Positions 12,125 through 29,330 of a DNA stretch of 64,000 bases are shown in pieces; position 1 is the stretch's first letter, and the number at the start of each line of letters is the position of its first letter. The stretch spans positions 16,333,859 through 16,397,858 of the forward strand of contig OX328099.1 of the NCBI GenBank assembly GCA_946811185.2, given 5' to 3'. A program made the translations under genes and the position numbers. Source of the stretch: Hippopus hippopus (taxonomy: Eukaryota > Mollusca > Bivalvia > Cardiida > Cardiidae). Under the pieces are notes generated by a model. The model was not told where the DNA came from and searched no databases. It saw only the letters and a program-made list of their open reading frames with translations.

Positions 12125-12236
12125 GCGGAATTTTTTGCAAAAGGGGGGGAGGGGAGTTTTTCCTATGCTCACAACCCTGAGAGGGATTTAGCATTCAAAG
12201 TGCAGGCCTTATGACTGTCAGGTTGGGTAAAAATGG

Positions 12237-12655
12237 TCAGATCACTGAGTTGGACTTAGTTTTTTCACCCTATGGATGATTTTCTTTCTAATTGCCTGAC
12301 CATTGAGTTGGACTTAGACTTTTTTCTGCATCTCTATGAATGATTTTCTTTCTAAAAGCCTGACCATTGAGTTGGACTTAGTTTTTTCTACACCTATGTA
12401 TGATTTTTTTCTCTCTAAAAGCCTGACCATTGAGTTGGACTTAGTTTTTTTCACCCTACGAATGAATTTTCTTTCTAAATGTCTGGACCTTGAGTTGGAC
12501 TTAGTCTTTTTTCTGCATCTATGAATGATTTTTTCTCTAAAAGACTGATCACTGAGTTGGACTTAGACTTTTTTATTCTGTGAATGAATTTTCTTTTCTA
12601 AATGTCAGAACATTGAGTTGAACTTAGTCTTTTTTCTGCATCTATGAATGATTCT
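12237..12655. repeat. About 60-bp tandem repeat array, left arm
   Basis: Seven imperfect units of roughly 58-62 bp, each with a TGAGTTGGACTTAG core and ATGAATGATTTTCTTTC. Spacing and sequence drift argue against a CRISPR or a coding repeat. Confidence 0.88.
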
Positions 12656-12742
12656 TACTCTTTGGAGTGTAACTCTTTGGAGTGTGAGTCTTTGGAACGC
12701 GTCTCTTCTAAAAGAAAGATAGAACTTTCGTGGTAGATGGTT

Positions 12743-13277
12743 AGCCCTGAAAAGAACTGATGGGTTAACTCTGAAAAGAGCTGTGACAATTTGAAGAAAT
12801 GACAACTTAAAGATAGAACTTTCGTCTGACAGCTTGAAGATAGAACTTTCGTCTGACATCTTGAAGATAGAACTTTCGTGGTAGATGGTTAGTCCTGAAA
12901 AGGACTGTTGGGTTAGCTCTGAAAAGAGCTGTGACAATTTGAAGAAATGACAACTTGAAGATAGAACTTTCGTCTGGCAGCTTGAAGATAGAACTTTCGT
13001 CTGACATCTTGAAGATAGAACTTTCGTGGTAGATGGTTAGTCCTGAAAAGGACTGTTGGGTTAGCTCTGAAAAGAGCTGTGACAATTTGAAGAAATGACA
13101 ACTTGAAGATAGAACTTTCGTCTAACAGCTTGAAGGTAGAACTTTCGTCTGACAATTTGAAGAAATGACAATTTGAAGAAAAGATAGAACTTACGTCTGA
13201 CAATTTGAAGAAAGGTAGATCTTCCGTGGTAGATGGTTAGCCCTGAAAAGGGCTGTTGGGGTGTCCCTAAAAGGGAC
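12743..13277 (-). promoter_or_regulatory. Array of eight histone-type 3' hairpins, left arm
   Basis: On the minus strand, downstream of the 70-aa gene, hairpins lie at 13263-13277, 13239-13254, 13063-13078, 13039-13054, 12915-12930, 12891-12906, 12767-12782 and 12743-12758. Except for the first, which has a 3-nt loop, all have a 6-bp stem and UUUC loop. Stems are AGCCCT/AGGGCT, AGCTCT/AGAGCT and AGTCCT/AGGACT. Each TCC- or CCC-type hairpin is followed by AACCATCTACCACG and a GAAAG or GGAAG stretch. This resembles the SLBP site, cleavage site and downstream element of histone genes. Confidence 0.8.
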
Positions 13278-13298
13278 CTGGTTTTGGAGGTTGTGTTT

Positions 13299-13511
13299 TT
13301 AAGCACAACCTCCAACCTTTCCGCAGGCTGGGCAGCTACTCGCTGCCCGCCTCTTTAACCTTTTCAGCTCCTGAGCACTCAGGTTGAACTTCAGCGAGAA
13401 CGGTGCCTCGTTGTCATCATCCCAACTTTCTGTTTTTGGTACAACGACCTTCTTCTTCTCCGACAGTTGAGCAAGCTCCCAAAAATCCATATCCCTAAGT
13501 GCAGTCTCCAT
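13299..13511 (-). CDS. Small CPxC-tail protein, 70 aa, left-arm copy
   Basis: Unrecognised protein. The C-terminus ends CPACGKVGGCA, a likely zinc-binding tail. The middle has an aromatic DFWELAQL segment and a basic LKRLKRR stretch before the cysteines. It is a diverged paralogue of the 119-aa right-arm protein; the DNA becomes identical only from the last ~11 codons outward. It lacks the N-terminal heptad repeats of that copy. The ATG at 13511 lies about 50 bp downstream of a TATA box. The promoter has CCAAT, E2F-type and CRE motifs, and a histone-like hairpin starts 21 nt after the stop (the canonical UUUC one after 44 nt). It is probably a nuclear accessory gene expressed in S phase, but its function is unknown. 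Confidence 0.75.
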   Translation of the reverse strand: METALRDMDFWELAQLSEKKKVVVPKTESWDDDNEAPFSLKFNLSAQELKRLKRRAASSCPACGKVGGCA

Positions 13512-13542
13512 CTTATCTGCGACTCGAAGAAATGAACAACGT

Positions 13543-13673
13543 GCGGGAAATAACGCTGGGTTTTATAGCTTTACAGGAGGATTGAACTAGCTGACCCATG
13601 ACGTCATTTTCTCCTATGTTTTTCCCGCGTCGGCGTTTCATGCTGTTTTGACTCCAAATTAATGTTATCCAAT
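13543..13673 (-). promoter_or_regulatory. S-phase-type promoter of the 70-aa gene
   Basis: On the minus strand, in order: CCAAT (13669-13673), GCGGGAAA (13621-13628, E2F consensus), TGACGTCA (13599-13606, CRE), TATAAAA (13561-13567) and a second GCGGGAAA/TTTCCCGC near the start site (13543-13550). The same block precedes three other small genes. Confidence 0.8.
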
Positions 13674-13702
13674 CAGATTCAGCGTTGTATTTCTAATACT
13701 AA

Positions 13703-13868
13703 ATGTTTTATTGTTGACCAACCCATGGGTTTGTTACATTTTCTTGTTCGGGGATTTTATTGTTGACCAACCCGTGGGTTTGTTACATTTTCTTGTTCGG
13801 GGGATTTTATTGTTACCCAATCCATAGGTTTGTTACATTTTCTTTTTCGGGTAAGAAAAAACTAGAGT
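13703..13868. repeat. 57-bp repeats upstream of the cassette, left arm (3 copies)
   Basis: Three tandem units containing TTTATTGTTGACCAACCC and GGGTTTGTTACATTTTCTTG. The unit recurs in three, two and one copies in front of the right-arm cassettes. Confidence 0.85.
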
Positions 13869-13962
13869 TTAACTAACAGTTATGAGACGTTGTATGGGAA
13901 AAATGTAACCAGAACAAGTCTTTTGGGGAAAACAGAATGAAAAGCTCTATTGTTTTTGAACT

Positions 13963-13983
13963 TTTATTTACTGAACTTTTATT
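13963..13983 (-). terminator. Paired AATAAA poly(A) signals for the 217-aa gene
   Basis: Minus-strand AATAAA at 13963-13968 and 13978-13983, about 530 nt beyond the 217-aa stop, past an AT-rich array. The mirrored pair at 22233-22253 would serve the polymerase-side genes. Confidence 0.45.
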
Positions 13984-13995
13984 TACTGAACAGAA

Positions 13996-14450
13996 CTAAA
14001 CATTGAAACATTTTTTTGCAATGCATCATAAAAAAATTTCTTGGCAATGAAAAAAATTTCTTGACAATGAAAAAAATCACAATGAAACATTTTTTTTGCA
14101 ATGCATCATAAAAAAATTTCTTGACAATGAAAAAACATTTTCTTAACAATGAAAAAAATCACAATGAAACATTTTTTTTGCAATGCATCATAAAAAAATT
14201 TCTTGACAATGAAAAAACATTTTCTTAACAATGAAAAAAAATCACAAGCAAACATTTTTTTTGCAATACATCATAAAAAAATTTCTTGACAATGAAAAAA
14301 CATTTTCTTAACAATGAAAAAAATCGCACTGAAATATTTTTTTCACAATGAATTATTCACAACGAATTAATCGCAATGAATTAATCACAATGAATTATTT
14401 TTTCGCAACGAATTATTTTACAATGAATTAATCGCAAAAACAGTATATAA
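13996..14450. repeat. AT-rich 75-80-bp tandem array, left arm
   Basis: About four units with GCAATGCATCATAAAAAAA and TTTCTTGACAATG, then shorter AATGAATTA units. It is inverted at 21768-22220. Non-coding; it may be an unwinding or spacer region. Confidence 0.85.
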
Positions 14451-14509
14451 CAAATTTTATGCAATGTAAATTCGCAAACACCACGAGTTTCATATTTGTT
14501 TTCATATTC

Positions 14510-15163
14510 CTACCGTTTTGTTGTTTTTCTTGGTTGTTTTCGTTCTGTCTTTGGTTTTTTCGGGATCTTGAAATCAACGTGATTGTCAATGTTTTTCCCG
14601 TATTTGCCCTGCCCTGTCAATATTGGTATAGTTGGTTTTTGATCAACTCGCTGCTTCTTGTGGAGATGGTTACCATCTTCCTCAGATTTCCGTTTTGTTG
14701 TTTTTCTTGGTTGTTTTTCCTTTGGTTGATTTTTCTTTGGTTGATTTTTCTTCACAACACTTACGATAGAGTCCACTAAGTTGTGAAGATTGGATTTATC
14801 AAACTCGAACTCCACAGGAATCTTCACAGGAGGGGTTGAAATGAGCTGATCCTGTTGACGTAGAACCTCGATATTTCTACTGAGCTGATCAGTACTTGCG
14901 GTTAAAGTTTTAATTTCCTCCAAATGTCTGTTTAAAGTCTCCAACTGATCTATGATTCGGATCATCATGCTATCTTGTTTCAAATTTAGCTGCTTTACCT
15001 CTTCATAAATGTTGTCAAACACTGTCGCTGGAATGATGGTTGTCGAATTTAACTCCGGTGGTGGATTGATAATTGTCGAATTCATAACTGATGAAAGAAC
15101 GTCTCCATTGTTTTCCACTGATGGAAAATCGCTCAAGTTGATTTCATCTAAGTTGTGCTTCAT
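14510..15163 (-). CDS. Coiled-coil protein with a basic Lys/Pro-rich tail, 217 aa
   Basis: No family recognised. The N-terminal 50 residues are acidic and Ser/Asn-rich. Residues about 50-108 form a predicted coiled coil (EEVKQLNLKQ, DQLETLNRHLEEI). Residues 138-160 are strongly basic (KKNQPKKNQPKEKQPRK), and the tail repeats KQPRKTTKR at the very end, so it is probably nuclear and DNA-binding. I chose the ATG at 15163 because its leader aligns with that of the 88-aa gene, and nothing upstream in frame is an ATG. The TAG stop sits exactly at the left arm's inner boundary, so the C-terminus may have been set by arm formation. It could be the unknown terminal protein expected for a protein-primed polymerase, but nothing proves that. 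Confidence 0.75.
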   Translation of the reverse strand: MKHNLDEINLSDFPSVENNGDVLSSVMNSTIINPPPELNSTTIIPATVFDNIYEEVKQLNLKQDSMMIRIIDQLETLNRHLEEIKTLTASTDQLSRNIEVLRQQDQLISTPPVKIPVEFEFDKSNLHNLVDSIVSVVKKNQPKKNQPKEKQPRKTTKRKSEEDGNHLHKKQRVDQKPTIPILTGQGKYGKNIDNHVDFKIPKKPKTERKQPRKTTKR

Positions 15164-15255
15164 ATTGTAACTGCCTCTGAATATTGATACTGCTTCCGAA
15201 GTGATCGTTAGCTGAGAATCAAAGAAATGGTGAATGTATGAAAATAACACCGAGC

Positions 15256-15261
15256 TTTATA
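15256..15261 (-). promoter_or_regulatory. TATA box of the 217-aa gene
   Basis: CGTATAAAGC on the minus strand, about 95 nt before the ATG. Leader and TATA match those of the 88-aa gene (CCTCTGTAAACGTATAAA). No CRE is present; a GGCGGAAA lies just upstream. Confidence 0.65.
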
Positions 15262-15403
15262 CGTTTACAGAGGATTGAAATTTTTAAAGAGGGCGGACCT
15301 GGCGGAAAGCACCGGTATTGTACTGTGTGACACCGAATTAGGAGTGGTAAAAAACACCAATATAACCGTCGATTTGATTGCACAATGTTAATGAAACGCC
15401 GAC

Positions 15404-15471
15404 GCGGGAAAAAACATAGGAGAAAATGACGTCATAGGTCAGTTAGTTCAATCCTCCTGTAAAGCTATAAA
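15404..15471 (+). promoter_or_regulatory. E2F/CRE/TATA promoter of the 68-aa gene
   Basis: GCGGGAAA at 15404-15411, TGACGTCA at 15427-15434 and TATAAA at 15466-15471, with the same spacing as the arm-gene promoters. The upstream CCAAT and 57-bp repeats are absent. Confidence 0.78.
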
Positions 15472-15510
15472 GCCCAGTGATATTTTACATAAAATCATAT
15501 TTGTTCCAGA

Positions 15511-15717
15511 ATGGTTCGAATTCTTGTATGTCCTCACTGTGCAAACAGATGTCTGATAGAGTGTGGGAAATGTTTTTCCATACTCGAGTATCTTGGGCAG
15601 AAGCATAACTGTCCAGATACAGATGAAGGATTTTATGATGACGATGAAGGTTCGACGATTTGCTGCGAACACTGTGGATGTGAAATCATCCCAGTGGGTC
15701 GGGCGGAAGAATCGTAG
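15511..15717 (+). CDS. Cysteine-rich zinc-ribbon-like protein, 68 aa
   Basis: Unrecognised small protein with ten cysteines. CPHC (7-10) and CGKC (18-21) could make one zinc ribbon. A second cluster, CCEHCGC (51-57), follows an acidic DTDEGFYDDDEG linker. It starts about 40 nt after its TATA box. Divergent from the 217-aa gene, sharing the 15164-15510 intergenic region. A histone-like hairpin begins 31 nt after the stop. It could be a transcription cofactor or adaptor, but I cannot assign a function. Confidence 0.75.
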   Translation: MVRILVCPHCANRCLIECGKCFSILEYLGQKHNCPDTDEGFYDDDEGSTICCEHCGCEIIPVGRAEES

Positions 15718-15748
15718 AGCTGGATGTCAATGTGAGATCCTTCAAAAA

Positions 15749-15764
15749 AGCCCTTTTCAGGGCT
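15749..15764 (+). terminator. Histone-type 3' hairpin of the 68-aa gene
   Basis: AGCCCTTTTCAGGGCT: 6-bp stem, UUUC loop, then AACCA and, about 11 nt later, CACGAAAGATC. Position and order match a histone mRNA 3' end. Confidence 0.82.
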
Positions 15765-15882
15765 AACCATTTAGCACGAAAGATCTTTCTTCTCAAATTG
15801 TCAAAAGTAAAAAAAGACTTACAGTCATAACTAGAAAAAAGTCAAAAGTAAGAAGTAATTATTTTTATATTTTTTATTTCAA

Positions 15883-15888
15883 AAAGAA
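15883..15888 (-). terminator. Poly(A) signal for the zinc-knuckle gene
   Basis: AATAAA on the minus strand, about 135 nt beyond the 283-aa stop. No UUUC hairpin is seen on this strand here, in contrast to the small genes. Confidence 0.5.
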
Positions 15889-16022
15889 CTTATGTACAAT
15901 GAAAAAATCAAAATCATGAACTGTAAAGACAAAAATGAATGAACTGTAAAAGACAAAAAATGAATGAAAAAATCAAGTCAGTCTTTTTTTGTTTATAATC
16001 AATATTGTATTGAAATCTTTTT

Positions 16023-16874
16023 TCACTCAGTATGTTTTTTCTTTTTCTTTGAGATGTCAGATTCACATTTGTTTTTACGTTTTCTTTTCCTATCGTTGGT
16101 TTTTAATTCCACATCTGGACAGATTTTGTCCTCATGTTTTGTTGATTTGTAAAAGAAATAGTTCTTTGTTACTCGTTTTTTCTTCTTTTCGATGTTTTGC
16201 TGTTTTTCCTTTCCGTACGAACAACCCGGCTCTGCAGAAAATTCGTTTTTTAGATCCAAAGTTTGTTGTTTTCTTAGATTATCGTTTGTAGATATTTTTT
16301 TCTCTGTCTGTTCTGTTATTTTGCAGATTTCTGAATCGCTGTTAGCCGCTGTATCGCTCTGCATGTCTACGATCTGAGTTTCATCCGATGAGGATGTAGC
16401 TTGTGGTGAACTTTTTTTCCATGTATTTTCACTACAGAATGAATTTAGTGTGCCGACGAATTTTATATCTTTGAGGCCATCAACGTTGTAAAACGATGGT
16501 AAAATCTCAATGTCGTGACTGTGTGGATTCACGTAGACAAAAACAATTGTTCCTAGCTGATTTTCTTTTTCTGCACATTCTTTGGCCCAATGTCCTGCTT
16601 CGTTGCATGTGAAACAAATATTTGTTCTCATACCATTCGCACCATATCGTTTGTCAATCGTCGCTTGATCCAAAACTCTGTAGCTGGTAGTACGGTAAAC
16701 ATCTTTTTCTTCTAAATGTTGCTGGGATAAAAATGATCCCACATAGTTTCCGATATGTTTAACATTATACTTTGATGGTATATTGCTGATCTCATAATCG
16801 TGGCTGTATGGATTAACATACAGATACACCCTCTTACTAAGTGGTGATGTATTTTGCAGCTTTAACTCACTCAT
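16023..16874 (-). CDS. CCHC zinc-knuckle protein with a duplicated domain, 283 aa
   Basis: One CCHC zinc knuckle (C87-x2-C90-x4-H95-x4-C100) is flanked by two copies of a ~42-residue motif. Copy one is at about 16-60 (VYLYVNPYSHDYEI) and copy two at about 111-152 (VFVYVNPHSHDIEI); each is followed by YNV and VG. The C-terminal half is Ser/Asp then Lys-rich (KKKKRVTK, RKRKRKNK, KKKKKH), giving several nuclear localisation signals. Such knuckles bind single-stranded nucleic acid, so a role beside the divergently transcribed polymerase is plausible but inferred. It is not a Gag: there is no reverse transcriptase, protease or capsid. The start is the ATG at 16874; the frame extends upstream only through non-ATG codons. 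Confidence 0.8.
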   Translation of the reverse strand: MSELKLQNTSPLSKRVYLYVNPYSHDYEISNIPSKYNVKHIGNYVGSFLSQQHLEEKDVYRTTSYRVLDQATIDKRYGANGMRTNICFTCNEAGHWAKECAEKENQLGTIVFVYVNPHSHDIEILPSFYNVDGLKDIKFVGTLNSFCSENTWKKSSPQATSSSDETQIVDMQSDTAANSDSEICKITEQTEKKISTNDNLRKQQTLDLKNEFSAEPGCSYGKEKQQNIEKKKKRVTKNYFFYKSTKHEDKICPDVELKTNDRKRKRKNKCESDISKKKKKHTE

Positions 16875-16941
16875 ATTTTTATCAGCTGTACTGACTGAGA
16901 TCGAGTAGGAGAATGAATAGATTTTCACAACTAACGGCTTA

Positions 16942-16975
16942 TTTATACACTGTTACAACGGAGAGGGTATATAAA
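16942..16975. promoter_or_regulatory. Divergent TATA boxes, zinc-knuckle gene and polymerase
   Basis: Minus-strand TATAAA at 16942-16947 serves the zinc-knuckle gene. Plus-strand TATATAAA at 16968-16975 serves the polymerase. No E2F or CRE motif lies between the two ATGs, unlike the small-gene promoters. Confidence 0.7.
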
Positions 16976-17029
16976 TTGCTAGTTTTTTCTCACTTTGGCA
17001 TTATTGTCTTTGCACTCAGAGCTAAAACG

Positions 17030-20000
17030 ATGGGTAAAAGAAAAAGAATAATAACCTTTTCAGACAGCGAAAGTGACGATGAGGTGTTTCCACCAACAAA
17101 AAAGAAAAAAACTAGACCTTTGAAAGAAGAAAGTGACGATGAGGTGTTTCCACCAATAAAAAAGAAAAAAACTAAACCGTTGAAAGAAGAAAATGATAGC
17201 GACGATGAAAGTACCAACTCTAACTTAGACATGAAAAGTCTATATGATTTAACAGAAAAGGGTAATAAGAAGTCAAGAAAATTTAAAACAGAATCACATG
17301 TGCTGATGCTGAGTTTTAAGAAATTTGAAGAATTAACACCTCAGAGACTCCTTGGATTATTTGACGATGTTACCTGTGAAATCATTCGAAAGTTAAATGC
17401 CAACCCGACGGACATGATTAGAATTACCATCAATCATCCTTCGTTGGAAATGGGAATCCATATTCCTTTTTTAGCTGCAGACCAGTTACAAGGTGAAACT
17501 ATGCTGAATGAAATTGAACGAGTTTTACAATCGAATACAGATTTCGTCTTGAACGATGGATTCATGACATTTGACATTACACATACAACACCACCAAGTG
17601 GTAGCGGAAAACAAAAAAATAGATCGTCAGAATTAGATTCAAAGTTTTTTGCCCAGAAGAAGCGATCTATTATTCAAATTGACAATCATGACCAACTATG
17701 TTTCGCGAGAGCCGTTGTTGTGGGAATTTGCTACAGTGAACGTGAAAACACCGAGGCATGGAATAGAAAATGGGATCGTATTCGTCATTCAAAATGTCCT
17801 CTTCAAAAGACTGAAGCTGAGAAATTGTTACATGAAGCTGGAGTTTCACCAACACAGTCTGTAGGAATTGATAAATACAAAAAAATTCAAACATTCTTGT
17901 ATGAAAAAGGCTATGTCATTAAAGTTCACCAACAGCATTCAAAAGTGGAAAAAATATTTAAACATCCAGAAGTGAAAGCCAATAGTAAGATCATACATTT
18001 GTACTTTCATCAAAACCATTATGACTACATCAAATCTATCAAAGGTTTTCTTAGTTGTGGATATTATTGTGAGTTCTGTGATGTGGGTTACACTCACCGG
18101 GAAAGTCATGCTTGTTCAAATATCTGTAAAGGTTGTTATCGCGAAGGAAAATGTCCATCAGAATCAAAAGAATATGTTTGCAGTGTTTGCAGTAGACGAT
18201 TTTTTAGTGCTGAATGCTTTGAAAATCACAGAACTGTAAATGGTAAAGAAAAGAAATCCATTTGTGAATTAGTGAAACTCTGCTCGAAATGCGGTGCACA
18301 ATATCATGTCAGAAAGAAAAATCATGTTTGCAATGGAAAGAAAAGGTGTCATATCTGTAAGAGAATTGTTAACTTTTCTCATCAATGCTATATTCAGCCT
18401 TACCAAAGTAAGTTGAACCATGACAGCGATGACGAGACGAGTTCTTCTGTAGTCAAAAAACCACAGTTTATTTTCTTTGATTTTGAATGCAAACAAGACA
18501 CAGGTGTACACATCCCGAATTATTGTATTGCACACAGAGCGTGTGATGAATGTATCGATAAATCACTTGATTTTCATTGTTCTACATGCAGTGAATTTGA
18601 AGAGGGTAGGGAAGTTATTTTTCAAGGTGAAGAAACTTTGAGTCAATTTTGCAACTGGCTCTTTTCAAAACATCATAAAGGGGTTACGGCTATTGCCCAT
18701 AATTTCAAAGGCTATGACGGCCAGTTCATTCTTGACTATATTGTCAAAGTTGGGTTAAAACTTCCAAAATTGATCATGAATGGAAACAATATTATGAAGT
18801 TAGAACTGAACGGTGTACGTCTGATCGATTCTTTCAATTTCATGAGTTTTGGTTTGGCAAAATTTCCACCCACCTTTGGTCTTCAAGAAATGAAAAAAGG
18901 TTACTTTCCTCACTGGGCGAATACAGATGAATTTTGGAGTTACATCGGACCCTACTTGGATATGTCTTATTACAAGCCCGACTCAATGTCTGAAGAGGCT
19001 AGGTCGAAATTTATAGTTTGGTATAATGACAAAGTTCAAAATGGTGAGGAATTCAATTTTCAGAAGGAGATGGAAATGTACTGTAGGTCAGACGTTGATA
19101 TCCTCAGACGAGGATGTGCTGAATTCAGAAAGCTGTTTATCGAACAGGGCGGTATTTGTCCATTTTTAGAGGCGATTACCATCGCAGATGCCTGTAACAA
19201 GGTGTGGCGAAGCAAATATTTACCAGAAAATCAAATAGCTATCATTTCAAGTAAAGACTCATCCAGACGACGCTTTTCTATGAAAGCGATACGATGGGTT
19301 CAAAGCGTTGCTCAGGAAAAAGGTATTAATATTCAGCATGCAAAAAATGGTGGTGAAGTTCAAATCGGGAAATATAGTGTAGATGGTTTTCACCGTCAAT
19401 CAAACACTGTTTATGAATTTCTTGGGGATTTGTATCATGGTTGTCCTGTATGCTATACAGATCGAAATCAGATCAATCCTATTAATGGAAAACCCATGTC
19501 TGAATTGTACGAACGTACTTTTGAACGTATAGCAGATATCGAAGACATGGGATATAATGTAGTGTACATTTGGGAACACGAATTTGATGCTAAGATGAAG
19601 GATAAAGAGTACAAAAAACACATTGAAAAGTTATATCCACATTTGGACCCTATCGATCCGAGGGATGGTTTGTCCGGGGGAAGATGTAATGCAATAAAAA
19701 TTGGATATGATGTTGATGAAAAAACCAAAAAGGAAATCAAGTACATCGATATCTGTTCTCTATACCCTTATGTTTGTAAACACAAATCCTATCCTGTAGG
19801 TCAGCCAAAAATTTTGTCTGCTGAGAATATTGATATGAACAATATTCGCCAATATGAGGGATTAATCAAATGCAAAGTTTTGCCTCCAACTGATTTGTTT
19901 CACCCCGTTCTTCCAGTTCACTGTAACAACAAAATGATGTTTCCACTCTGTATGAAATGTGCAGAAGAAAGCTCAAACATTTGTAGTCATGGTAAAGAAG

Positions 20001-21019
20001 AGAGGGCTTTGGTCGGAACATGGGTTACTTTTGAATTATTCAAGGCTCTTGACTGCGGCTATCGATTATTGCAAGTGTATGAAATTTGGCATTTCAATTC
20101 TGTGTCAGATCAGTTCTTTAAACATTATGTGGACAATTTCTTGAAAATTAAGCAAGAAGCCAGTGGTTATCCAGATTGCTGTCAATCAGACTCAGAAAAA
20201 GATCAGTTCGTTTGTGAATATGAGAAGGCAGAAGGTGTTCGTCTTGATCCAAGTTGTATTCAAAGAAATCCTGGGAGAAGATCATTTGCTAAGATTATGT
20301 TGAACTGCCTTTGGGGAAAATTAGCTCAGCGTGAAAAAATGACCCAGACGGAATACATCAGCGATCCGTCTAAATATTTTGAATTAGTCACCAATCCCAA
20401 TTTCATTGTAAAGCATGTAGAAATCTTTGACGAGGACTGTTCATTCATCTTGGTTAACTATGAATCAAAGTTGGAACATATTGACACCCATGCTACAGCC
20501 AATGTGGTAGTAGGTTCTTACGTAACAGCTTATGCAAGATTGGAATTGTACAGCGTTCTTGAAAAGTTAAAAGATAGAGTTCTGTATTTCGATACAGATA
20601 GTTGTATGTACATTCACGACCCTGAATTATGGAATCCCCCTATTATTAACAGCCGGTTAGGAAAATGGACTGATGAAGAGCCTGCTTGTAAAATTACTCA
20701 ATTCAGAGGACTTGGACCTAAGAATTATGCTTACAAAATGAAAACAAAAGATGGAAAAGAGATAAGCAAATGTAAAGTAAAGGGGATTACTCTGGATTAC
20801 AATACAAAACAGGTGGTAAATTTCGATACATATTCGAAATGTGCTTTTGATCGTACAGTAGAAATCAAAATTCACTATGATTGTAAAATTAAAAGACACA
20901 AAGATAGAACGGTTACCAGTGAACCACAAACAAAAACGTTTCGTTCTGTATACACCAAGAGAGTCATTGTAAATGGTACTGATACTGTACCCTATGGTTA
21001 TAAAAGCTTGAGAAAATAA
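17030..21019 (+). CDS. PolB: Protein-primed-type family B DNA polymerase, 1,329 aa
   Basis: Replicative polymerase of the Polinton/adintovirus/bidnavirus type. The N-terminus has two tandem acidic-basic repeats (ESDDEVFPP, then KKKKT), which act as nuclear localisation signals. A domain typical of animal Polinton polymerases follows (VLQSNTDFVLNDGF, then NHDQLCFARAVV). A cysteine-rich zinc-finger stretch covers about 342-458. Exonuclease: FFDFE (D484, E486), NFKGYD (D563), YCRSD (Y684, D688). Polymerase: motif A DICSLYP (D907), motif B KIMLNCLWG (K1088), motif C YFDTDS (D1188, D1190). All catalytic residues are present. Between exonuclease and motif A is an NGGE...YSVDG...YEFLG segment, resembling a nuclease-like insertion found in this group. 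The ATG at 17030 is the first after the TATA box; the frame upstream lies in the promoter. No frameshift or stop is seen. Confidence 0.97.
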   Translation: MGKRKRIITFSDSESDDEVFPPTKKKKTRPLKEESDDEVFPPIKKKKTKPLKEENDSDDESTNSNLDMKSLYDLTEKGNKKSRKFKTESHVLMLSFKKFEELTPQRLLGLFDDVTCEIIRKLNANPTDMIRITINHPSLEMGIHIPFLAADQLQGETMLNEIERVLQSNTDFVLNDGFMTFDITHTTPPSGSGKQKNRSSELDSKFFAQKKRSIIQIDNHDQLCFARAVVVGICYSERENTEAWNRKWDRIRHSKCPLQKTEAEKLLHEAGVSPTQSVGIDKYKKIQTFLYEKGYVIKVHQQHSKVEKIFKHPEVKANSKIIHLYFHQNHYDYIKSIKGFLSCGYYCEFCDVGYTHRESHACSNICKGCYREGKCPSESKEYVCSVCSRRFFSAECFENHRTVNGKEKKSICELVKLCSKCGAQYHVRKKNHVCNGKKRCHICKRIVNFSHQCYIQPYQSKLNHDSDDETSSSVVKKPQFIFFDFECKQDTGVHIPNYCIAHRACDECIDKSLDFHCSTCSEFEEGREVIFQGEETLSQFCNWLFSKHHKGVTAIAHNFKGYDGQFILDYIVKVGLKLPKLIMNGNNIMKLELNGVRLIDSFNFMSFGLAKFPPTFGLQEMKKGYFPHWANTDEFWSYIGPYLDMSYYKPDSMSEEARSKFIVWYNDKVQNGEEFNFQKEMEMYCRSDVDILRRGCAEFRKLFIEQGGICPFLEAITIADACNKVWRSKYLPENQIAIISSKDSSRRRFSMKAIRWVQSVAQEKGINIQHAKNGGEVQIGKYSVDGFHRQSNTVYEFLGDLYHGCPVCYTDRNQINPINGKPMSELYERTFERIADIEDMGYNVVYIWEHEFDAKMKDKEYKKHIEKLYPHLDPIDPRDGLSGGRCNAIKIGYDVDEKTKKEIKYIDICSLYPYVCKHKSYPVGQPKILSAENIDMNNIRQYEGLIKCKVLPPTDLFHPVLPVHCNNKMMFPLCMKCAEESSNICSHGKEERALVGTWVTFELFKALDCGYRLLQVYEIWHFNSVSDQFFKHYVDNFLKIKQEASGYPDCCQSDSEKDQFVCEYEKAEGVRLDPSCIQRNPGRRSFAKIMLNCLWGKLAQREKMTQTEYISDPSKYFELVTNPNFIVKHVEIFDEDCSFILVNYESKLEHIDTHATANVVVGSYVTAYARLELYSVLEKLKDRVLYFDTDSCMYIHDPELWNPPIINSRLGKWTDEEPACKITQFRGLGPKNYAYKMKTKDGKEISKCKVKGITLDYNTKQVVNFDTYSKCAFDRTVEIKIHYDCKIKRHKDRTVTSEPQTKTFRSVYTKRVIVNGTDTVPYGYKSLRK

Positions 21020-21100
21020 TTTCATATCACATTGTTGTGTACCAATCACTCAAAGTAAGTCGGGGAAAAAAATATTAGCAACTGTTCAAAAATAACAATC

Positions 21101-21757
21101 ATGTTACCGCTACCAATAGAACTACGTGAAAAAATTTATGGAGAATTTGTTCGACAGCATACGCTTGATGAACAAACACAGCTTAACATTAAATTTTTCT
21201 GTGTGAAAATGTGGATCAAAAAAATGTTTAAATGGGTTGCAAAAGGAGAAAAGTCCTACAAAGTGTATGCTATATTCAACTTTATTGCGATGATGGTGGA
21301 CGATTCAGGGCTGGATCTCGTTCTCAAGACTTATTTAGCAGATAGCTGTATGAAAGACAATGTTATTAGTAAACTGTTTCGATCCACAAGACGATGGACA
21401 TTTTTTATCATAGGAACAACAGAAGAAAGTTTTCTTAACGTTGTGAAAATGAAATCAGTTCTATTTAACTTTTACTTACGCTACAAAAAAGGACCTGTTC
21501 ATGATTCCTACGGAGAAACAATGGAAACAATGTCAGGGTATATTCTATTTGATAGAGATGTTACAGAAGAAGTAGTAAATTCAGCTCTTTCAACAAAAGA
21601 CGCTTATAGACATGTTGCTCCATTCATAGGACTACGAGATTTCGACGATATGGACAGTGAGTATACAATGTTTTTTGGGTATGACCAATTGCATAAAGAC
21701 ATTACGGAATATGAAACCAAACGTGAAACTCGTGGTGTTTGCGAATTTGCATTATAA
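21101..21757 (+). CDS. Unknown protein, 218 aa, downstream of the polymerase
   Basis: Not recognised. It starts LPLPIELREKIYGEF, faintly like an F-box N-terminus, and is rich in aromatic residues and lysine; no transmembrane segment is evident. It lies 81 nt after the polymerase stop with no clear TATA box between, so it may be read from the polymerase transcript or from an internal promoter. Its last ~17 codons (from 21706) are part of the inverted arm, and a diverged remnant of those codons lies at 14462-14510 on the minus strand, behind the 217-aa stop. It could be a replication accessory factor; this is a guess from position only. Confidence 0.75.
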   Translation: MLPLPIELREKIYGEFVRQHTLDEQTQLNIKFFCVKMWIKKMFKWVAKGEKSYKVYAIFNFIAMMVDDSGLDLVLKTYLADSCMKDNVISKLFRSTRRWTFFIIGTTEESFLNVVKMKSVLFNFYLRYKKGPVHDSYGETMETMSGYILFDRDVTEEVVNSALSTKDAYRHVAPFIGLRDFDDMDSEYTMFFGYDQLHKDITEYETKRETRGVCEFAL

Positions 21758-21767
21758 AAATTTGTTA

Positions 21768-22220
21768 TATACTGTTTTTGCGATTAATTCATTGTAAAAT
21801 AATTCGTTGCGAAAAAAATAATTCATTGTGATTAATTCATTGCGATTAATTCGTTGTGAATAATTCATTGTGAAAAAAATATTTCAGTGCGATTTTTTCA
21901 TTGTTAAGAAAATGTTTTTTCATTGTCAAGAAATTTTTTATGATGCATTGCAAAAAAAAATGTTTGCTTGTGATTTTTTTTCATTGTTAAGAAAATGTTT
22001 TTTCATTGTCAAGAAATTTTTTTATGATGCATTGCAAAAAAAATGTTTCATTGTGATTTTTTTCATTGTTAAGAAAATGTTTTTTCATTGTCAAGAAATT
22101 TTTTTATGATGCATTGCAAAAAAAATGTTTCATTGTGATTTTTTTCATTGTCAAGAAATTTTTTTCATTGCCAAGAAATTTTTTTATGATGCATTGCAAA
22201 AAAAATGTTTCAATGTTTAG
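21768..22220. repeat. AT-rich 75-80-bp tandem array, right arm
   Basis: Inverted counterpart of 13996-14450, with TTTCATTGTTAAGAAAATG units. The frame open through it (21870-22109) is repetitive and not a gene. Confidence 0.85.
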
Positions 22221-22232
22221 TTCTGTTCAGTA

Positions 22233-22253
22233 AATAAAAGTTCAGTAAATAAA
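22233..22253 (+). terminator. Paired AATAAA poly(A) signals after the polymerase operon-like pair
   Basis: AATAAA at 22233-22238 and 22248-22253. They are the first AATAAA seen after the polymerase and 218-aa genes, about 480 nt past the latter. Confidence 0.45.
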
Positions 22254-22360
22254 AGTTCAAAAACAATAGAGCTTTTCATTCTGTTTTTCCCCAAAAGACT
22301 TGTTCTGGTTACATTTTTCCCATACAACGTCTCATAACTGTTAGTTAAACTCTAGTTTTT

Positions 22361-22512
22361 TCTTACCCGAAAAAGAAAATGTAACAAACCTATGGATTGG
22401 GTAACAATAAAATCCCCCGAACAAGAAAATGTAACAAACCCACGGGTTGGTCAACAATAAAATCCCCGAACAAGAAAATGTAACAAACCCATGGGTTGGT
22501 CAACAATAAAAC
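22361..22512. repeat. 57-bp repeats, first right-arm cassette (3 copies)
   Basis: Units with AAGAAAATGTAACAAACC and GGTTGGTCAACAATAAAA, inverted relative to 13703-13868. Confidence 0.85.
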
Positions 22513-22654
22513 ATTTAGTATTAGAAATACAACGCTGAATCTGATTGGATAACATTAATTTGGAGCCAAAACAGCATGAAACGTGGCATGGAAAAAATGT
22601 ATGTGCTTTCTGCCAGGTCCGAGCTCTTTAAAAAATTTCAATCCTCTGTAAACG

Positions 22655-22660
22655 TATAAA
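22655..22660 (+). promoter_or_regulatory. TATA box of the 88-aa gene
   Basis: CGTATAAAGC. Upstream, the shared AACAGCATGAAACG switches to a different sequence without E2F or CRE motifs. This TATA and leader resemble those of the 217-aa gene, suggesting a promoter swap. Confidence 0.65.
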
Positions 22661-22752
22661 GCCTGCGTTATTTTTCACACATTCACCATTTCTTTGAATC
22701 TCAGTTAACGATCACTTCGAAAGCAGTGCCAATATTCGGAAGCAATATCAAT

Positions 22753-23019
22753 ATGGAAGAGGTAAATCATCAACTACGTGAGGCTCTCCAAGAGTATCTA
22801 AATGCCGGACAGCAGTTATTGCAACTAACCACTCGTCTCGTAGGAGAGGAGGAACAAAACCAGCTGCGACGTATAACACAACCATACAAAGATCTCGGCG
22901 AAAGATTAGTTCAGCTATTATTAAAGACAACACCGGATATCATCTTGGTTGATATCGAGTTCGGGAGGAAGATTACAGCATGCCCCATTTGCCAAGCGAA
23001 TTTTGGGTGTTGCCATTAG
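22753..23019 (+). CDS. Coiled-coil CPxC-tail protein, 88 aa
   Basis: A Glu/Gln/Leu-rich helical protein (residues 1-60) ending CPICQANFGCCH, a cysteine/histidine tail like that of the 70- and 119-aa proteins, so probably zinc-binding. I prefer the ATG at 22753 over the one at 22726 because it aligns with the start of the 217-aa gene after a homologous leader; the earlier ATG would add nine residues. A histone-like hairpin starts 29 nt past the stop. No function known. Confidence 0.72.
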   Translation: MEEVNHQLREALQEYLNAGQQLLQLTTRLVGEEEQNQLRRITQPYKDLGERLVQLLLKTTPDIILVDIEFGRKITACPICQANFGCCH

Positions 23020-23048
23020 AACTGGAAAAAACACAGCCTCCAAAAAAC

Positions 23049-23064
23049 AGCCCTTTTCAGGGCT
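23049..23064 (+). terminator. Histone-type 3' hairpin of the 88-aa gene
   Basis: AGCCCTTTTCAGGGCT followed directly by ACCCA, which is the canonical histone flank, then CACGAAAGTTC about 12 nt on. The closest match to the metazoan consensus in the element; only the first base pair (A-U for G-C) differs in type. Confidence 0.85.
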
Positions 23065-23200
23065 ACCCATCTACCACGAAAGTTCTATCATTCTTCAAAT
23101 TGTCATTTCTTCAAATTGTCAAACTTCTTTCTTTTAGAAGAGTTACACTGCAAAGATTTACAATCAAAAAAAGTCATAGATTAGCCAAACTCTAGTTTTT

Positions 23201-23302
23201 CTAACCCGAATAAGAAAATGTAACAAACCCACGGATTGGGCAAAAATAAAATCCCCCGAACAAGAAAATGTAACAAACCCACGGGTTGGTCAACAATAAA
23301 AC
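23201..23302. repeat. 57-bp repeats, second cassette (2 copies)
   Basis: Two units with AAGAAAATGTAACAAACCC, preceding the promoter of the 104-aa gene. Confidence 0.82.
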
Positions 23303-23333
23303 ATTTAGTATTAGAAAAACAACGCTGAATCTG

Positions 23334-23448
23334 ATTGGATAACATTAATTTTTGGAGCCAAAACAGCATGAAACGCCGACGCGGGAAAAAACATAGGAGA
23401 AAATGACGTCATGGGTCAACTAGTTCAATCCGTCTGAAAAGCTATAAA
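23334..23448 (+). promoter_or_regulatory. CCAAT/E2F/CRE/TATA promoter of the 104-aa gene
   Basis: ATTGG (CCAAT inverted) 23334-23338, GCGGGAAA 23381-23388, TGACGTCA 23404-23411, TATAAA 23443-23448. Confidence 0.8.
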
Positions 23449-23487
23449 TCTCGGCGATTTATTTTCCAAGCATTTCATTTTTTCACA

Positions 23488-23802
23488 ATGGCTTCAAGAC
23501 AATCACCAGTCGTCACTTGGATGGATACTGAGCGAAAGTTAATAAGAGCAAGGAGACAAATCGTCTTACTTAAACAACGCCTAGCTGCAGTGAGAAGACG
23601 ATACGAGAGGGCTGAGCTTGCTAATAACAGGCTGTTCTGTTATAACCTTCGGATGAAGGAACTCATTATTGAGGGCATGCTTGAGATGTATTTTCAGTAT
23701 GTTATTTTAAAAACTGAGCAGGTGACCCGTCTTTTCCGTGCGCAAATCGCCACTGAAAGGAGTGAGTCAGACAGTGAATCGACTGATGCTGATACTGAAT
23801 AA
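23488..23802 (+). CDS. Basic coiled-coil protein with an acidic tail, 104 aa
   Basis: Unrecognised. Residues ~15-60 are a basic, Arg-rich predicted coiled coil (LIRARRQIVLLKQRLAAVRRR). The last 15 residues are Ser/Asp/Glu-rich (SESDSESTDADTE), a possible kinase target or interaction tail. It has one cysteine and none of the CPxC tail. It follows its TATA box by about 40 nt, and a histone-like hairpin starts 31 nt after the stop. An AATAAA overlaps the stop codon but is an unlikely poly(A) signal, since the hairpin follows immediately. Confidence 0.75.
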   Translation: MASRQSPVVTWMDTERKLIRARRQIVLLKQRLAAVRRRYERAELANNRLFCYNLRMKELIIEGMLEMYFQYVILKTEQVTRLFRAQIATERSESDSESTDADTE

Positions 23803-23833
23803 ACATTTTCATAAAATCAGCTCTTCTCAAAAC

Positions 23834-23849
23834 AGCCCTTTTCAGGGCT
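23834..23849 (+). terminator. Histone-type 3' hairpin of the 104-aa gene
   Basis: AGCCCTTTTCAGGGCT then AACCA, and CACGAAAGTTC about 9 nt further on. Confidence 0.82.
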
Positions 23850-23974
23850 AACCATTACCACGAAAGTTCTATCTTTCTTCAAATTGTCATTTCTTCAAAT
23901 TGTCAAACTTCTTTCTTTTAGAAGAGTTACACTCCAAAGACTCACACTCCAGAGAGTTACACTCCAAAGAGTAA

Positions 23975-24358
23975 AAAAATCATTCATAGATGCAGAAAAA
24001 GACTAAGCCCAACTCAATGTCCAGACATTTAGAAAAGAAAATTCATTCATAGAATAAAAAAAGCTAAGTCCAACCCAGTGTTCAGTCTTTTAGAGAGAAA
24101 AAATCATACATAGGTGAAGAAAAAACTAAGTCCAACTCAATGATCAGACATTTAGAAAGAGAAAAAAATCATTCATAGATGTAAAAAAGACTAAGTCCAA
24201 CTCAATGGTCAGACATTTAGAAAGAAAAAAGTCTAAGCTCAACTCAGTGCTCAGACATTTAGAAATCATTTATAGTGTAAAAATCTAAGTTCAACTCAGC
24301 GATATAGGGACAAATTCCATTTAGAGAGAAAAAATCATTCATAGGATGAAAAAACTAA
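23975..24358. repeat. Third copy of the 60-bp array, internal
   Basis: Units with the CTAAGTCCAACTCA core, in the same orientation as the right-arm array but between the 104-aa and 46-aa genes. The preceding CACTCCAAAGA repeats (about 23925-23970) also match those of the right arm at 25925-25965. This looks like a former outer arm now buried inside the element. Confidence 0.82.
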
Positions 24359-24376
24359 AAAGTGATCCATTACACA

Positions 24377-24382
24377 TATAAA
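24377..24382 (+). promoter_or_regulatory. TATA box of the 46-aa gene
   Basis: CATATAAAAC, about 70 nt before the ATG. No E2F or CRE motif was found upstream; the internal 60-bp array is there instead. Confidence 0.6.
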
Positions 24383-24452
24383 ACACTAAACTCTTGATTA
24401 TTTTTTCTCATTCACCATTAACTTTTTGTAAAACCTGAGCCAGTATCGTACA

Positions 24453-24593
24453 ATGTTTGGATTAACATTTTTTCTCTTATTGCTCTTCTGGTTAGAAGAA
24501 AGAGAACGTTTCAGATATATCAGACATGAAATTGAACATCTGATGCAAATGCTAGATAAAATGGAATCAATCAAAAGAAAGAGAGGGGTATAA
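24453..24593 (+). CDS. 46-aa membrane-anchored microprotein
   Basis: Too short for a standard ORF cut-off. It has a hydrophobic N-terminal segment (LTFFLLLLFWL, residues 4-14) and then a charged helix with heptad-like leucines and methionines, ending in a basic tail (KRKRGV). It is supported by its position: TATA box upstream and a histone-like hairpin 25 nt after the stop, the same layout as the other small genes. It may be a single-pass membrane peptide; function unknown. Confidence 0.6.
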   Translation: MFGLTFFLLLLFWLEERERFRYIRHEIEHLMQMLDKMESIKRKRGV

Positions 24594-24618
24594 AAAAGTG
24601 CATTCTGTACAAAAAAGC

Positions 24619-24634
24619 AACTCTTTTCAGGGTT
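24619..24634 (+). terminator. Histone-type 3' hairpin of the 46-aa gene (variant)
   Basis: AACTCTTTTCAGGGTT: all six pairs kept through A-U changes and one G-U wobble, UUUC loop unchanged, followed by AGCTATC. The most diverged stem, yet still paired. Confidence 0.7.
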
Positions 24635-24720
24635 AGCTATCTTAAATAATCATCTTTCTTTTCATTTTATCAGAAGACTCATAATCAAAAAAGTCATAGG
24701 TTAGTTAAACTCTAGTTTTT

Positions 24721-24772
24721 TTCTAACCCGAACAAGAAAATGTAACAAACCCACGGATTGGTCAACAATAAA
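24721..24772. repeat. 57-bp repeat, fourth cassette (1 copy)
   Basis: A single unit, AACAAGAAAATGTAACAAAC then ATTGGTCAACAATAAAAC. Confidence 0.78.
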
Positions 24773-24805
24773 ACATTTAGTATTAGAAATAAAACGCTGA
24801 TTCTG

Positions 24806-24936
24806 ATTGGATAACATTAATTTGGAGCCAAAACAGCATGAAACGCCGAAGCGGGAAAAACATAGGAGAAAATGACGTCATAGGTCAATTAGTTCAATCC
24901 GTCTGAAAAGCTATAAAACCCAGCGACATTTCCCGC
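24806..24936 (+). promoter_or_regulatory. CCAAT/E2F/CRE/TATA promoter of the 119-aa gene
   Basis: ATTGG 24806-24810, GCGGGAAA 24851-24858, TGACGTCA 24873-24880, TATAAA 24912-24917, plus TTTCCCGC 24929-24936 near the start site, as in the left-arm gene. Confidence 0.8.
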
Positions 24937-24960
24937 ACATTGTTCATTTTCATTTTCACG

Positions 24961-25320
24961 ATGGAAGAGCTAAGAAAGACGGTGGAAGAGCTAAGAAAGA
25001 CGGTGGAAGAGCTAAGAAAGACTGTGGGAGAGGCAGATCGGCAGCTAGAAAAGTTTGAAGCTGAGGCAGCGAGGAGACAGAGATATGTCTTCGAAGAGAA
25101 ACTGCTATTTACCGGGTGGGACTTTTGGGACTTTGCCCAATTACCACAAAACAAGAAGGAGAAAAAGGCGTTCGTAGTGCCTTCTACCGAAGATTGGAGC
25201 AGCGATAACGAACCACCATTTTCGCTGAAGTACAACCTGAGTGCCCAGCAGTTAAAAAGGCTAAAGAGACGGGTGGATAGTAGCTGTCCAGCCTGCGGAA
25301 AGGTTGGAGGTTGTGCTTAA
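24961..25320 (+). CDS. Coiled-coil CPxC-tail protein, 119 aa, right-arm copy
   Basis: Paralogue of the 70-aa left-arm protein. It adds an N-terminal coiled coil built of three exact EELRKTV heptads (21-bp DNA repeats). Then come WDFWDFAQL, an acidic EDWSSDNEPPF stretch, a basic LKRLKRR and the tail CPACGKVGGCA (C109, C112, C118), a probable zinc site. The ATG at 24961 is the first in frame. It is followed by the right-arm hairpin array: a 3-nt-loop form 21 nt after the stop and a canonical form 44 nt after. Function unknown; a small multimeric nuclear regulator is my best guess. Confidence 0.77.
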   Translation: MEELRKTVEELRKTVEELRKTVGEADRQLEKFEAEAARRQRYVFEEKLLFTGWDFWDFAQLPQNKKEKKAFVVPSTEDWSSDNEPPFSLKYNLSAQQLKRLKRRVDSSCPACGKVGGCA

Positions 25321-25341
25321 AAACACAACCTCCAAAACCAG

Positions 25342-25876
25342 GTCCCTTTTAGGGACACCCCAACAGCCCTTTTCAGGGCTAACCATCTACCACGGAAGAT
25401 CTACCTTTCTTCAAATTGTCAGACGTAAGTTCTATCTTTTCTTCAAATTGTCATTTCTTCAAATTGTCAGACGAAAGTTCTACCTTCAAGCTGTTAGACG
25501 AAAGTTCTATCTTCAAGTTGTCATTTCTTCAAATTGTCACAGCTCTTTTCAGAGCTAACCCAACAGTCCTTTTCAGGACTAACCATCTACCACGAAAGTT
25601 CTATCTTCAAGATGTCAGACGAAAGTTCTATCTTCAAGCTGCCAGACGAAAGTTCTATCTTCAAGTTGTCATTTCTTCAAATTGTCACAGCTCTTTTCAG
25701 AGCTAACCCAACAGTCCTTTTCAGGACTAACCATCTACCACGAAAGTTCTATCTTCAAGATGTCAGACGAAAGTTCTATCTTCAAGCTGTCAGACGAAAG
25801 TTCTATCTTTAAGTTGTCATTTCTTCAAATTGTCACAGCTCTTTTCAGAGTTAACCCATCAGTCCTTTTCAGGGCT
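25342..25876 (+). promoter_or_regulatory. Array of eight histone-type 3' hairpins, right arm
   Basis: Hairpins at 25342-25356 (GTCCCT/AGGGAC, 3-nt loop), 25365-25380, 25541-25556, 25565-25580, 25689-25704, 25713-25728, 25837-25852 and 25861-25876. The AGCTCT form is paired with the AGTCCT form as a ~148-bp repeating unit; the last pair contains G-U wobbles (AGAGTT, AGGGCT). ATTGTC and ACGAAAGTTCTATC stretches fill the spaces. Frames open through this array are repetitive and are not genes. Confidence 0.82.
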
Positions 25877-25963
25877 AACCATCTACCACGAAAGTTCTAT
25901 CTTTCTTTTAGAAGAGACGCGTTCCAAAGACTCACACTCCAAAGAGTTACACTCCAAAGAGTA

Positions 25964-26382
25964 AGAATCATTCATAGATGCAGAAAAAAGACTAAGTTCA
26001 ACTCAATGTTCTGACATTTAGAAAAGAAAATTCATTCACAGAATAAAAAAGTCTAAGTCCAACTCAGTGATCAGTCTTTTAGAGAAAAAATCATTCATAG
26101 ATGCAGAAAAAAGACTAAGTCCAACTCAAGGTCCAGACATTTAGAAAGAAAATTCATTCGTAGGGTGAAAAAAACTAAGTCCAACTCAATGGTCAGGCTT
26201 TTAGAGAGAAAAAAATCATACATAGGTGTAGAAAAAACTAAGTCCAACTCAATGGTCAGGCTTTTAGAAAGAAAATCATTCATAGAGATGCAGAAAAAAG
26301 TCTAAGTCCAACTCAATGGTCAGGCAATTAGAAAGAAAATCATCCATAGGGTGAAAAAACTAAGTCCAACTCAGTGATCTGA
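25964..26382. repeat. About 60-bp tandem repeat array, right arm
   Basis: Inverted copy of the left array, with core CTAAGTCCAACTCA. It lies outside the hairpin array and inside the CCGTCCCTGA repeats. Confidence 0.88.
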
Positions 26383-26708
26383 CCATTTTTACCCAACCTG
26401 ACAGTCATAAGGCCTGCACTTTGAATGCTAAATCCCTCTCAGGGTTGTGAGCATAGGAAAAACTCCCCTCCCCCCCTTTTGCAAAAAATTCCGCTCAGGG
26501 ACGGGAGCCTAGGGACACATCCCCAGAATGTCCTCCACAAGGCCGCCATTTTGAATGCTATGATTCTATTTATAGTAACATTTTCATGCGGAATCTCGGA
26601 CTTTATCGCTTACTCGCAACTTTTCGGACCTTTTGCAAGGGATAAATTCCTTCGGGATGGCAAACTAGGGACACATTTTTGTCAGGGACGGTGATATAGG
26701 GCACTCAG

Positions 26709-26761
26709 GGACGGTAGCATGGGATCTACCCCCGGCCTGGGTAGATCCCATGCTACCGTCC
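26709..26761. repeat. Terminal hairpin, right end
   Basis: Mirror image of the left hairpin: stems 26709-26731 and 26739-26761, loop CCGGCCT, 9 bp from the right terminus. Confidence 0.88.
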
Positions 26762-26770
26762 TTTACTACT

Positions 26771-26776
26771 GACATG
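26771..26776. repeat. Target site duplication, right copy
   Basis: GACATG follows the CTTTACTACT terminus and is then continuous with the rest of the interrupted MITE (TAGAAAAATTCC...). Confidence 0.93.
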
Positions 26777-28906: not shown

Positions 28907-29330
28907 GTAACCATTCTTAGTCTTATTCTACATTGAGAAAGTAACAGATCTTTTGATTGGCTAAACCCAAAGAGCCGCGCTCTGGCAAAAGAGGGCTTAA
29001 TGCATCTCCGTGAATCATTATACCAAGCAAGCGATCACATACTTGTTGACCCATAATAGCCACCTTTTTAACAACTGACCTAAGCATGAGGTAGACTGAT
29101 CTATGGACATACAGAAAATTAAACATTATCGAAACGTTTTGGCCCAGGTCAGCCTGCGCGGTTTGTGCAGGCTCACCTGGCATGATACCTTTCGCAGATG
29201 CATTAAGCCCCCTTTTCACAGACCGCGGTTCAAATGGTTTAGCTAATCAGAAGTCGTGACATTACTTTCAAATTTAGAAAATTCTTGAGAGTAAAAATTT
29301 TGTTAAAAATGGTTGATGAATACGGACCCT
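28907..29330. repeat. MITE family E interrupted by MITE family C
   Basis: The two halves of family E (28907-28965 and 29237-29330) are split at the centre by a full family C copy at about 28971-29234 (GAGCCGCGCTCTGG ... CAGACCGCGGTTC). Confidence 0.75.

Follow-up and report, generated by a model that had tools for sequence, protein, structure and literature searches.

The window analyzed here, i.e., the whole 64-kb stretch of contig OX328099.1 of Hippopus hippopus (positions 16,333,859–16,397,858, forward strand), contains a mobile element of 14,922 bp at positions 11849–26770 of the window, which is flanked on both sides by a 6-bp duplication, GACATG (11843–11848 and 26771–26776). The element is, as judged from its sequence, derived from Mavericks/Polintons and carries six small genes, encoding proteins of 70, 68, 88, 104, 46, and 119 amino acids (aa), each of which is followed by a hairpin of the type found at the 3′ ends of replication-dependent histone mRNAs. 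These hairpins were described in an initial annotation of the same DNA, which gave the element as the interval 15749–25876; the element extends beyond this interval on both sides. According to excerpts of two sources, no animal protein-coding mRNAs other than those of histones are of this kind (PMC6303110; PMC12819152), and the SLBP and U7 processing steps, as outlined in parts of two others (PMC7026596; PMC9756948), serve here as the yardstick.

Histone-type hairpins behind small genes

All six small genes have a hairpin with a 6-bp stem and a UUUC loop 25–44 nt past the stop codon (21–44 nt in the initial annotation). The 68-aa gene (15511–15717, + strand), whose product is Cys-rich and zinc-ribbon-like (PF08274, E 2.5e-4, under the curated cut-off), is followed by a hairpin at 15749–15764 with AACCA and GAAAG downstream, the 88-aa gene (22753–23019, +) by a hairpin at 23049–23064 with ACCCA and GAAAG, and the 104-aa gene (23488–23802, +) by a hairpin at 23834–23849, likewise with GAAAG. 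The 119-aa gene (24961–25320, +), with a coiled-coil-like start and a Cys-rich C-terminus, and its relative in the opposite arm, the 70-aa gene (13299–13511, − strand), also with a Cys-rich C-terminus, have their hairpins at 25365–25380 and 13239–13254, respectively, whereas the hairpin of the 46-aa gene (24453–24593, +) at 24619–24634 is degenerate; all six genes are open reading frames (ORFs). The AACCA or ACCCA sequence that had been placed behind every hairpin stands behind five of the six, and the downstream GAAAG, likewise claimed for every gene, is exact in three (68, 88, and 104 aa), replaced by GGAAG in two (119 and 70 aa), and absent from the 46-aa gene.

Each terminal repeat contains six additional hairpins in an outward-facing array (12743–13078, −, and 25541–25876, +; the latter as three pairs), along with additional CGAAAG-containing repeats and no recognized gene, and the signals are clearly duplicated within the element. 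On both strands of the window, 24 perfect 6-bp-stem hairpins with a TTTC loop were found, 19 in the element and five outside. Eighteen of the former, 11 on the + strand (15749 to 25861) and seven on the − strand (12743 to 13239), invariably carry the loop in the sense of the adjoining gene, in agreement with the initial annotation. The nineteenth (19382) lies within the coding sequence of the DNA polymerase gene (polB) with no ACCA or GAAAG alongside; it looks like a chance occurrence and was rejected as a member of the system. In 200 dinucleotide shuffles of the element, hairpins numbered 1.21 on average and five at most, compared with the 19 observed, and the full motif (hairpin, ACC, and GAAAG), present nine times in the element, never appeared; the rest of the window has its five hairpins (50 shuffles: mean 2.98, maximum 6) and no full motif.

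The initial annotation had proposed that the hairpins be aligned to the histone genes of the host, and this comparison gave a positive result. The host histone cluster is located on contig C15, where one fully read unit comprises five ORFs, the products of which we take to be H4, H2B, H2A, H1, and H3, with a hairpin each; a lone H2A-type gene elsewhere on C15 likewise has a hairpin. A covariance model was built from these six host 3′ ends only, and the window was scored with it without filters. The 12 best matches in the 64 kb are hairpins of the element, all on the gene strand, of which 11 scored 40.8–19.6 bits (E 4e-8 to 0.033) and the twelfth, that of the 46-aa gene, 17.4 bits (E 0.13), the best match beyond them reaching 14.6 bits (E 0.8, whole window). 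The hairpins of the 68-, 104-, and 88-aa genes scored 40.8 (E 4e-8), 40.5, and 35.8 bits, and those of the 70- and 119-aa genes both 32.5 bits (E 8.6e-6 for the former), while three of the six hairpins in each terminal array were matched. Host ends typically read GGCCCTTTTMAGGGCC, followed by ACCA and a CGARAG-like stretch approximately 12 nt further on, and element ends read AGCCCTTTTCAGGGCT, followed by AACCA and then CGAAAG at about the host distance; exact GAAAG occurs in two of the six host ends, compared with three of the six small genes. Among 16 distinct element and host hairpins, both bases have changed in four of the six stem pairs, a count in which pairing is inflated because these hairpins were picked for full stems. 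The Rfam model RF00032 gave no match in the window at its gathering score (34 bits), the best below it being 28.5 bits; however, some host histone-cluster matches also fall below this cut-off (e.g., 33.5 bits), and it is therefore not a fair test here.

Promoters, copies, and a second family

To the extent that sequence can tell, the resemblance to histone genes spans both gene ends, because the hairpin signal on the 3′ side is joined by histone-like promoters on the 5′ side, with exceptions weighed below. The arrangement TCAATCC-N9..13-TATAWA occurs six times in the window, always in the element, where it precedes the 70-, 217-, 68-, 88-, 104-, and 119-aa genes, and is found at none of the 99 TATAWA sites outside the element. 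The same motif occurs twice in the host histone unit, before H2B and H2A, and is accordingly common to these two genes and five of the six hairpin genes; host H1 and H4 lack the arrangement, and the spacing is wider in H3 and at the lone H2A-type gene. The promoters of the 217-aa gene (15256–15313, −) and the 88-aa gene (22603–22660, +) consist of an H1-promoter-like block, TCAATCC, and TATAAA, and share 24 of 27 (score 39) and 23 of 26 (score 37) contiguous bases, respectively, with the host H1 promoter, whereas the best of 300 random window segments scored 25. Both also match the lone H2A-type gene's promoter over 16 identical bases (score 32 vs. 25 for the control). In the 1.07-Gb genome searched, the H1-type block was found 242 times (reversed control, 0); the matches listed lie on contigs C1–C8 and are of the element form, the C15 histone cluster being beyond the matches listed. 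Furthermore, TGACGTCA and the E2F-like GCGGGAAA are both present at each of the 70-, 68-, 104-, and 119-aa genes. The window contains four TGACGTCA sites (13599, 15427, 23404, and 24873), all in element promoters, and GCGGGAAA occurs six times in the element and three times outside; for the seven genes checked in the second family described below, no TGACGTCA was found within 140 nt on the upstream side.

The polB gene is present in at least 35 scored copies, a lower bound, which are 97–100% identical, and 33 of the 35 are without a stop. With the window included, all 21 copies of the 68-aa gene have an intact hairpin with an identical stem-loop, and the hairpins of the 88- and 104-aa genes are intact in all 22 copies each. 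Variable sites are rarer in the signals (3/143) than in coding DNA (79/789; Fisher p 0.001) and downstream DNA (43/455; p 0.003), although the copies have a common ancestry and the sites are consequently not fully independent. The motif CTTTTCAGRRY-ACCA-GAAAG occurs 7,173 times genome-wide (reversed control, 0); the end of the lone H2A-type gene also fits it, and some of the 7,173 are therefore host histone genes. The matches listed for this motif lie within the first 16 Mb of C1; among them are the family of the window, a class of approximately 6.8 kb, and a diverged family, referred to as family 2. The middle of the shorter class is seen at C1:5162460–5167400, where polymerase pieces are rearranged and hairpins are kept, and the class is likely a non-autonomous derivative of the element. 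At C8:42665067, a lone motif match with a hairpin has no ORF of ≥60 aa in the surrounding 1 kb.

Family 2, as read from pieces of three copies, has the same gene set. It encodes a CCHC protein, a polymerase whose gene is interrupted in the copy examined, a protein of 217 aa with 67% identity to the 218-aa protein of the element, and relatives of the 68-, 104-, and 119-aa proteins (34–75% identical). All seven small genes compared have both the promoter motif and the hairpin, with one stem mismatch (97-aa gene), and the spacing between small gene and signal is similar in the two families. Between the families, 15–16 of 16 stem-loop bases and 35–40 of the 44–45 bases in the stretch to +42 are the same, compared with 57–74% identity in coding DNA. 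The family 2 pieces yielded 11 host-model matches (33.8–45.5 bits), some of which represent one position in two copies. Histone-type small genes in family 2 are duplicated and diverged: on one of the pieces (L106), two encode 79 aa (602–841 and 3111–3350), one 97 aa (1445–1738), and one 95 aa (2483–2770). The small-gene module of this family looks as if it evolves fast.

Central genes and further features of the element

The central part of the element contains the 217-aa gene (14510–15163, −), a 283-aa gene encoding a CCHC zinc knuckle (16023–16874, −; PF00098, E 5e-6), polB (17030–21019, +), which encodes a family B DNA polymerase of 1329 aa from this ATG (PF03175, E 4e-45; DNA polymerase in PHROGs), and the 218-aa gene (21101–21757, +). 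No hairpin was found behind these four genes, and AATAAA lies within 600 nt of three of them, at 526, 144, and 475 nt past the stop codon of the 217-, 283-, and 218-aa genes, respectively, and not of polB. The polB mRNA may share its 3′ end with the 218-aa gene, and the central genes probably use ordinary poly(A) sites.

Ten ORFs of the element were scanned. None matched a retroviral-type integrase, packaging ATPase, protease, or capsid family in Pfam, although diverged forms are possible, and none matched a histone family; with PHROGs, only one stray terminase match was obtained (E 0.09, to the 68-aa protein). The 217- and 218-aa proteins were assigned to no family in the Pfam and PHROGs scan. 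Integrase, ATPase, protease, and capsid were also absent from the Pfam matches of five family 2 ORFs. The element is termed "Maverick-derived" and not "Maverick" because no convincing match to these four proteins was obtained among the 10 scanned ORFs. Searches with polB found nothing in IMG/VR and five weak, uninformative matches in phage records, and a PDB search by sequence returned none. A structure prediction for the 218-aa protein, made without relatives, had a predicted local distance difference test (pLDDT) score of 37.5 and was discarded.

The terminal arms of 1,613 nt are 98% complementary; the left inverted repeat (11849–13461, +) begins AGTAGTAAAGGACGG, the right (25158–26770, −) ends CCTTTACTACT, and the element starts with AGTAGT and finishes with ACTACT. 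A second copy of the element has CTTATG on both sides as its 6-bp target duplication. Near each extreme end, within the inverted repeats, there is a palindrome with arms of approximately 23 nt (GGACGGTAGCATGGGATCTACCC and its complement; 11858–11910 and 26709–26761). An AT-rich repeat, present in approximately four tandem units spaced at 80–83 nt, is mirrored around the central genes at 13988–14356 and 21871–22197, and further inverted segments (13530–14403 vs. 21813–22583 and 24727–24949) make the element a nested palindrome. Dispersed short repeats with GCGCAGGCTGAC-type ends surround it (8257–8301, 9310–9354, 11185–11229, 29132–29176, and others) and look like host miniature elements.

Interpretation and comparison with known systems

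The observations described above comprise the anatomy of the element, the match of its hairpins to host histone ends, the lower variation of the signals, the copy number, the promoter resemblance, and a host SLBP gene (matched by PF15247 at 60.7 and 33.1 bits, the two matches lying 1 kb from each other). On this basis, it is very probable that a young, high-copy Maverick/Polinton-derived element presents small non-histone genes to its host as replication-dependent histone genes, and the histone-type reading of the 3′ ends in the initial annotation is strengthened by the host-model match, by conservation among copies and between families, and by the histone-like promoters. In mechanistic terms, we infer SLBP binding, U7 pairing, cleavage after ACCA, the lack of poly(A), and S-phase timing: the small genes would be transcribed by host factors from the histone-like promoters, the 6-bp UUUC hairpin would be recognized by host SLBP, and the host U7 small nuclear ribonucleoprotein would pair with the CGAAAG stretch. 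The transcript would then be cut just past ACCA, resulting in short S-phase mRNAs without poly(A) tails, and the outward-facing arrays in both terminal repeats probably serve as a fail-safe for 3′-end formation at the outermost gene.

Several points weigh against histone-type processing of the small-gene mRNAs. Regarding the hairpins, the first stem pair is A-U in the element, as the initial annotation had pointed out, and G-C in all six modeled host ends; that of the 46-aa gene has AGCTA in place of the ACCA-type sequence, no GAAAG, and A-U as its second pair; GGAAG and not GAAAG lies downstream of the 119- and 70-aa genes; and six of the 18 hairpins, the AGCTCT ones that stand first in each array pair with no downstream element directly behind, were not among the host-model matches up to E 10. 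Regarding the promoters, the 46-aa gene has a hairpin and no promoter motif, the 217-aa gene has the promoter and no hairpin, and no element promoter outscored the best control when compared with host H2A, H3, or H4, only that of the 70-aa gene doing so against H2B (28 vs. 25). For the 68-aa gene, variation is not clearly lower in the signal than in the DNA downstream of it (1/56 vs. 10/223 sites), the 26 nt from the stop codon to the hairpin of the 104-aa gene are also without a variable site, and alignable DNA beyond the signal is likewise 67–83% identical between the families, albeit gappy and only 12–34 bases long. AATAAA lies 173–250 nt past the stop codon in three of the six small genes (88, 104, and 46 aa), and poly(A) ends are therefore possible there, contrary to exclusive histone-type use. 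Finally, host U7 RNA was not found by an Rfam search, in which the control genomes were silent too, and a U7 pattern search gave 53 candidates, none convincing among the 20 inspected.

The signals might alternatively be captured leftovers, i.e., the end of a host histone gene, together with its promoter, that was picked up once, multiplied by duplication, and is now a functionless passenger. Such an origin would account for the strong similarity to host ends and the evident duplication within the element, and in copies as young as these (polB 97–100% identical) functionless sequence would look conserved too. However, the signals are less variable among copies than coding and downstream DNA, 15–16 of 16 stem-loop bases are kept between families despite coding DNA of 57–74% identity, and the placement behind small genes is similar in both families; we consider this explanation very improbable. 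Scarcely any weight is given to the idea that the hairpins act in DNA, or as generic RNA-stabilizing or terminator hairpins without SLBP and U7, as their sequence and not merely their pairing is nearly fixed, their loop, A-rich flank, ACCA, and CGAAAG spacing fit the host histone model, and their orientation is always that of the gene, notwithstanding the arrays in terminal repeats without a recognized gene and the half of their hairpins without a downstream element directly behind.

A decoy function, in which the hairpins, above all those in the arrays of the terminal repeats, would titrate SLBP or U7 and thereby perturb the host histone supply, besides or instead of forming mRNA ends, is unlikely: the six extra hairpins per array and the 7,173 motif copies genome-wide would suit it, yet the gene-proximal signals are placed like ordinary mRNA ends with promoters, and transcription of the arrays is hypothetical.

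A further-reaching version has a moderate probability: a capsid-less Maverick-derived lineage would have acquired a full histone-gene disguise, at both promoter and 3′ end, for a small non-histone module, the mRNAs of which would be made and kept only during host replication, in step with the element's own polymerase. These would be the first non-histone animal protein-coding mRNAs with a stem-loop end, with a possible load on SLBP and U7. If this holds, mobile-element genes with a histone-type end would break the histone-only rule, and selfish DNA would have a new way to read the host cell cycle, the expression of small genes being tied to the time of host DNA copying. Thousands of signal copies per genome may burden the host SLBP/U7 machinery; they would also provide, within one genome, a natural test bed for SLBP, U7, and histone-promoter requirements, and the question is raised of whether the host histone pathway is a target in conflict with such elements.

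The initial annotation knew of no transposon or virus ending its mRNAs in this manner, and none was found among the titles and beginnings of abstracts listed by searches of the open-licence PubMed Central literature. A histone-end pattern occurred in nine IMG/VR contigs, with the full 6-bp stem in none of the nine. Mavericks/Polintons, whose DNA polymerase is of the protein-primed family B type, share with the element the long inverted repeats, the (AGT)2//(ACT)2 ends, the target duplication of 6 bp, and the presence of a family B polymerase gene; in the available part of one report, vertebrate Mavericks are described with (AGT)2//(ACT)2 ends and 6-bp target duplications (PMC8097293), and for molluscs, the portions available of two others give the presence or amount of Mavericks only (PMC10294476; PMC8905726). 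The element differs in having small genes with histone-type signals in place of a recognized integrase, packaging ATPase, protease, and capsid. A virus has also been tied to the histone pathway, according to excerpts of PMC12819152, through a variant histone protein, whereas in the element it is the RNA and promoter signals that resemble those of histone genes, with no histone-family match among the 10 ORFs scanned. The closest counterpart is the metazoan histone mRNA 3′ end (RF00032), with its 6-bp stem, UUUC loop, A-rich 5′ flank, ACCA, and CGAAAG approximately 12 nt downstream, from which the ends of the element are distinguished by the A-U first pair, an often present extra A before ACCA, scores below the RF00032 gathering score, and their position on the non-histone genes of a mobile element.

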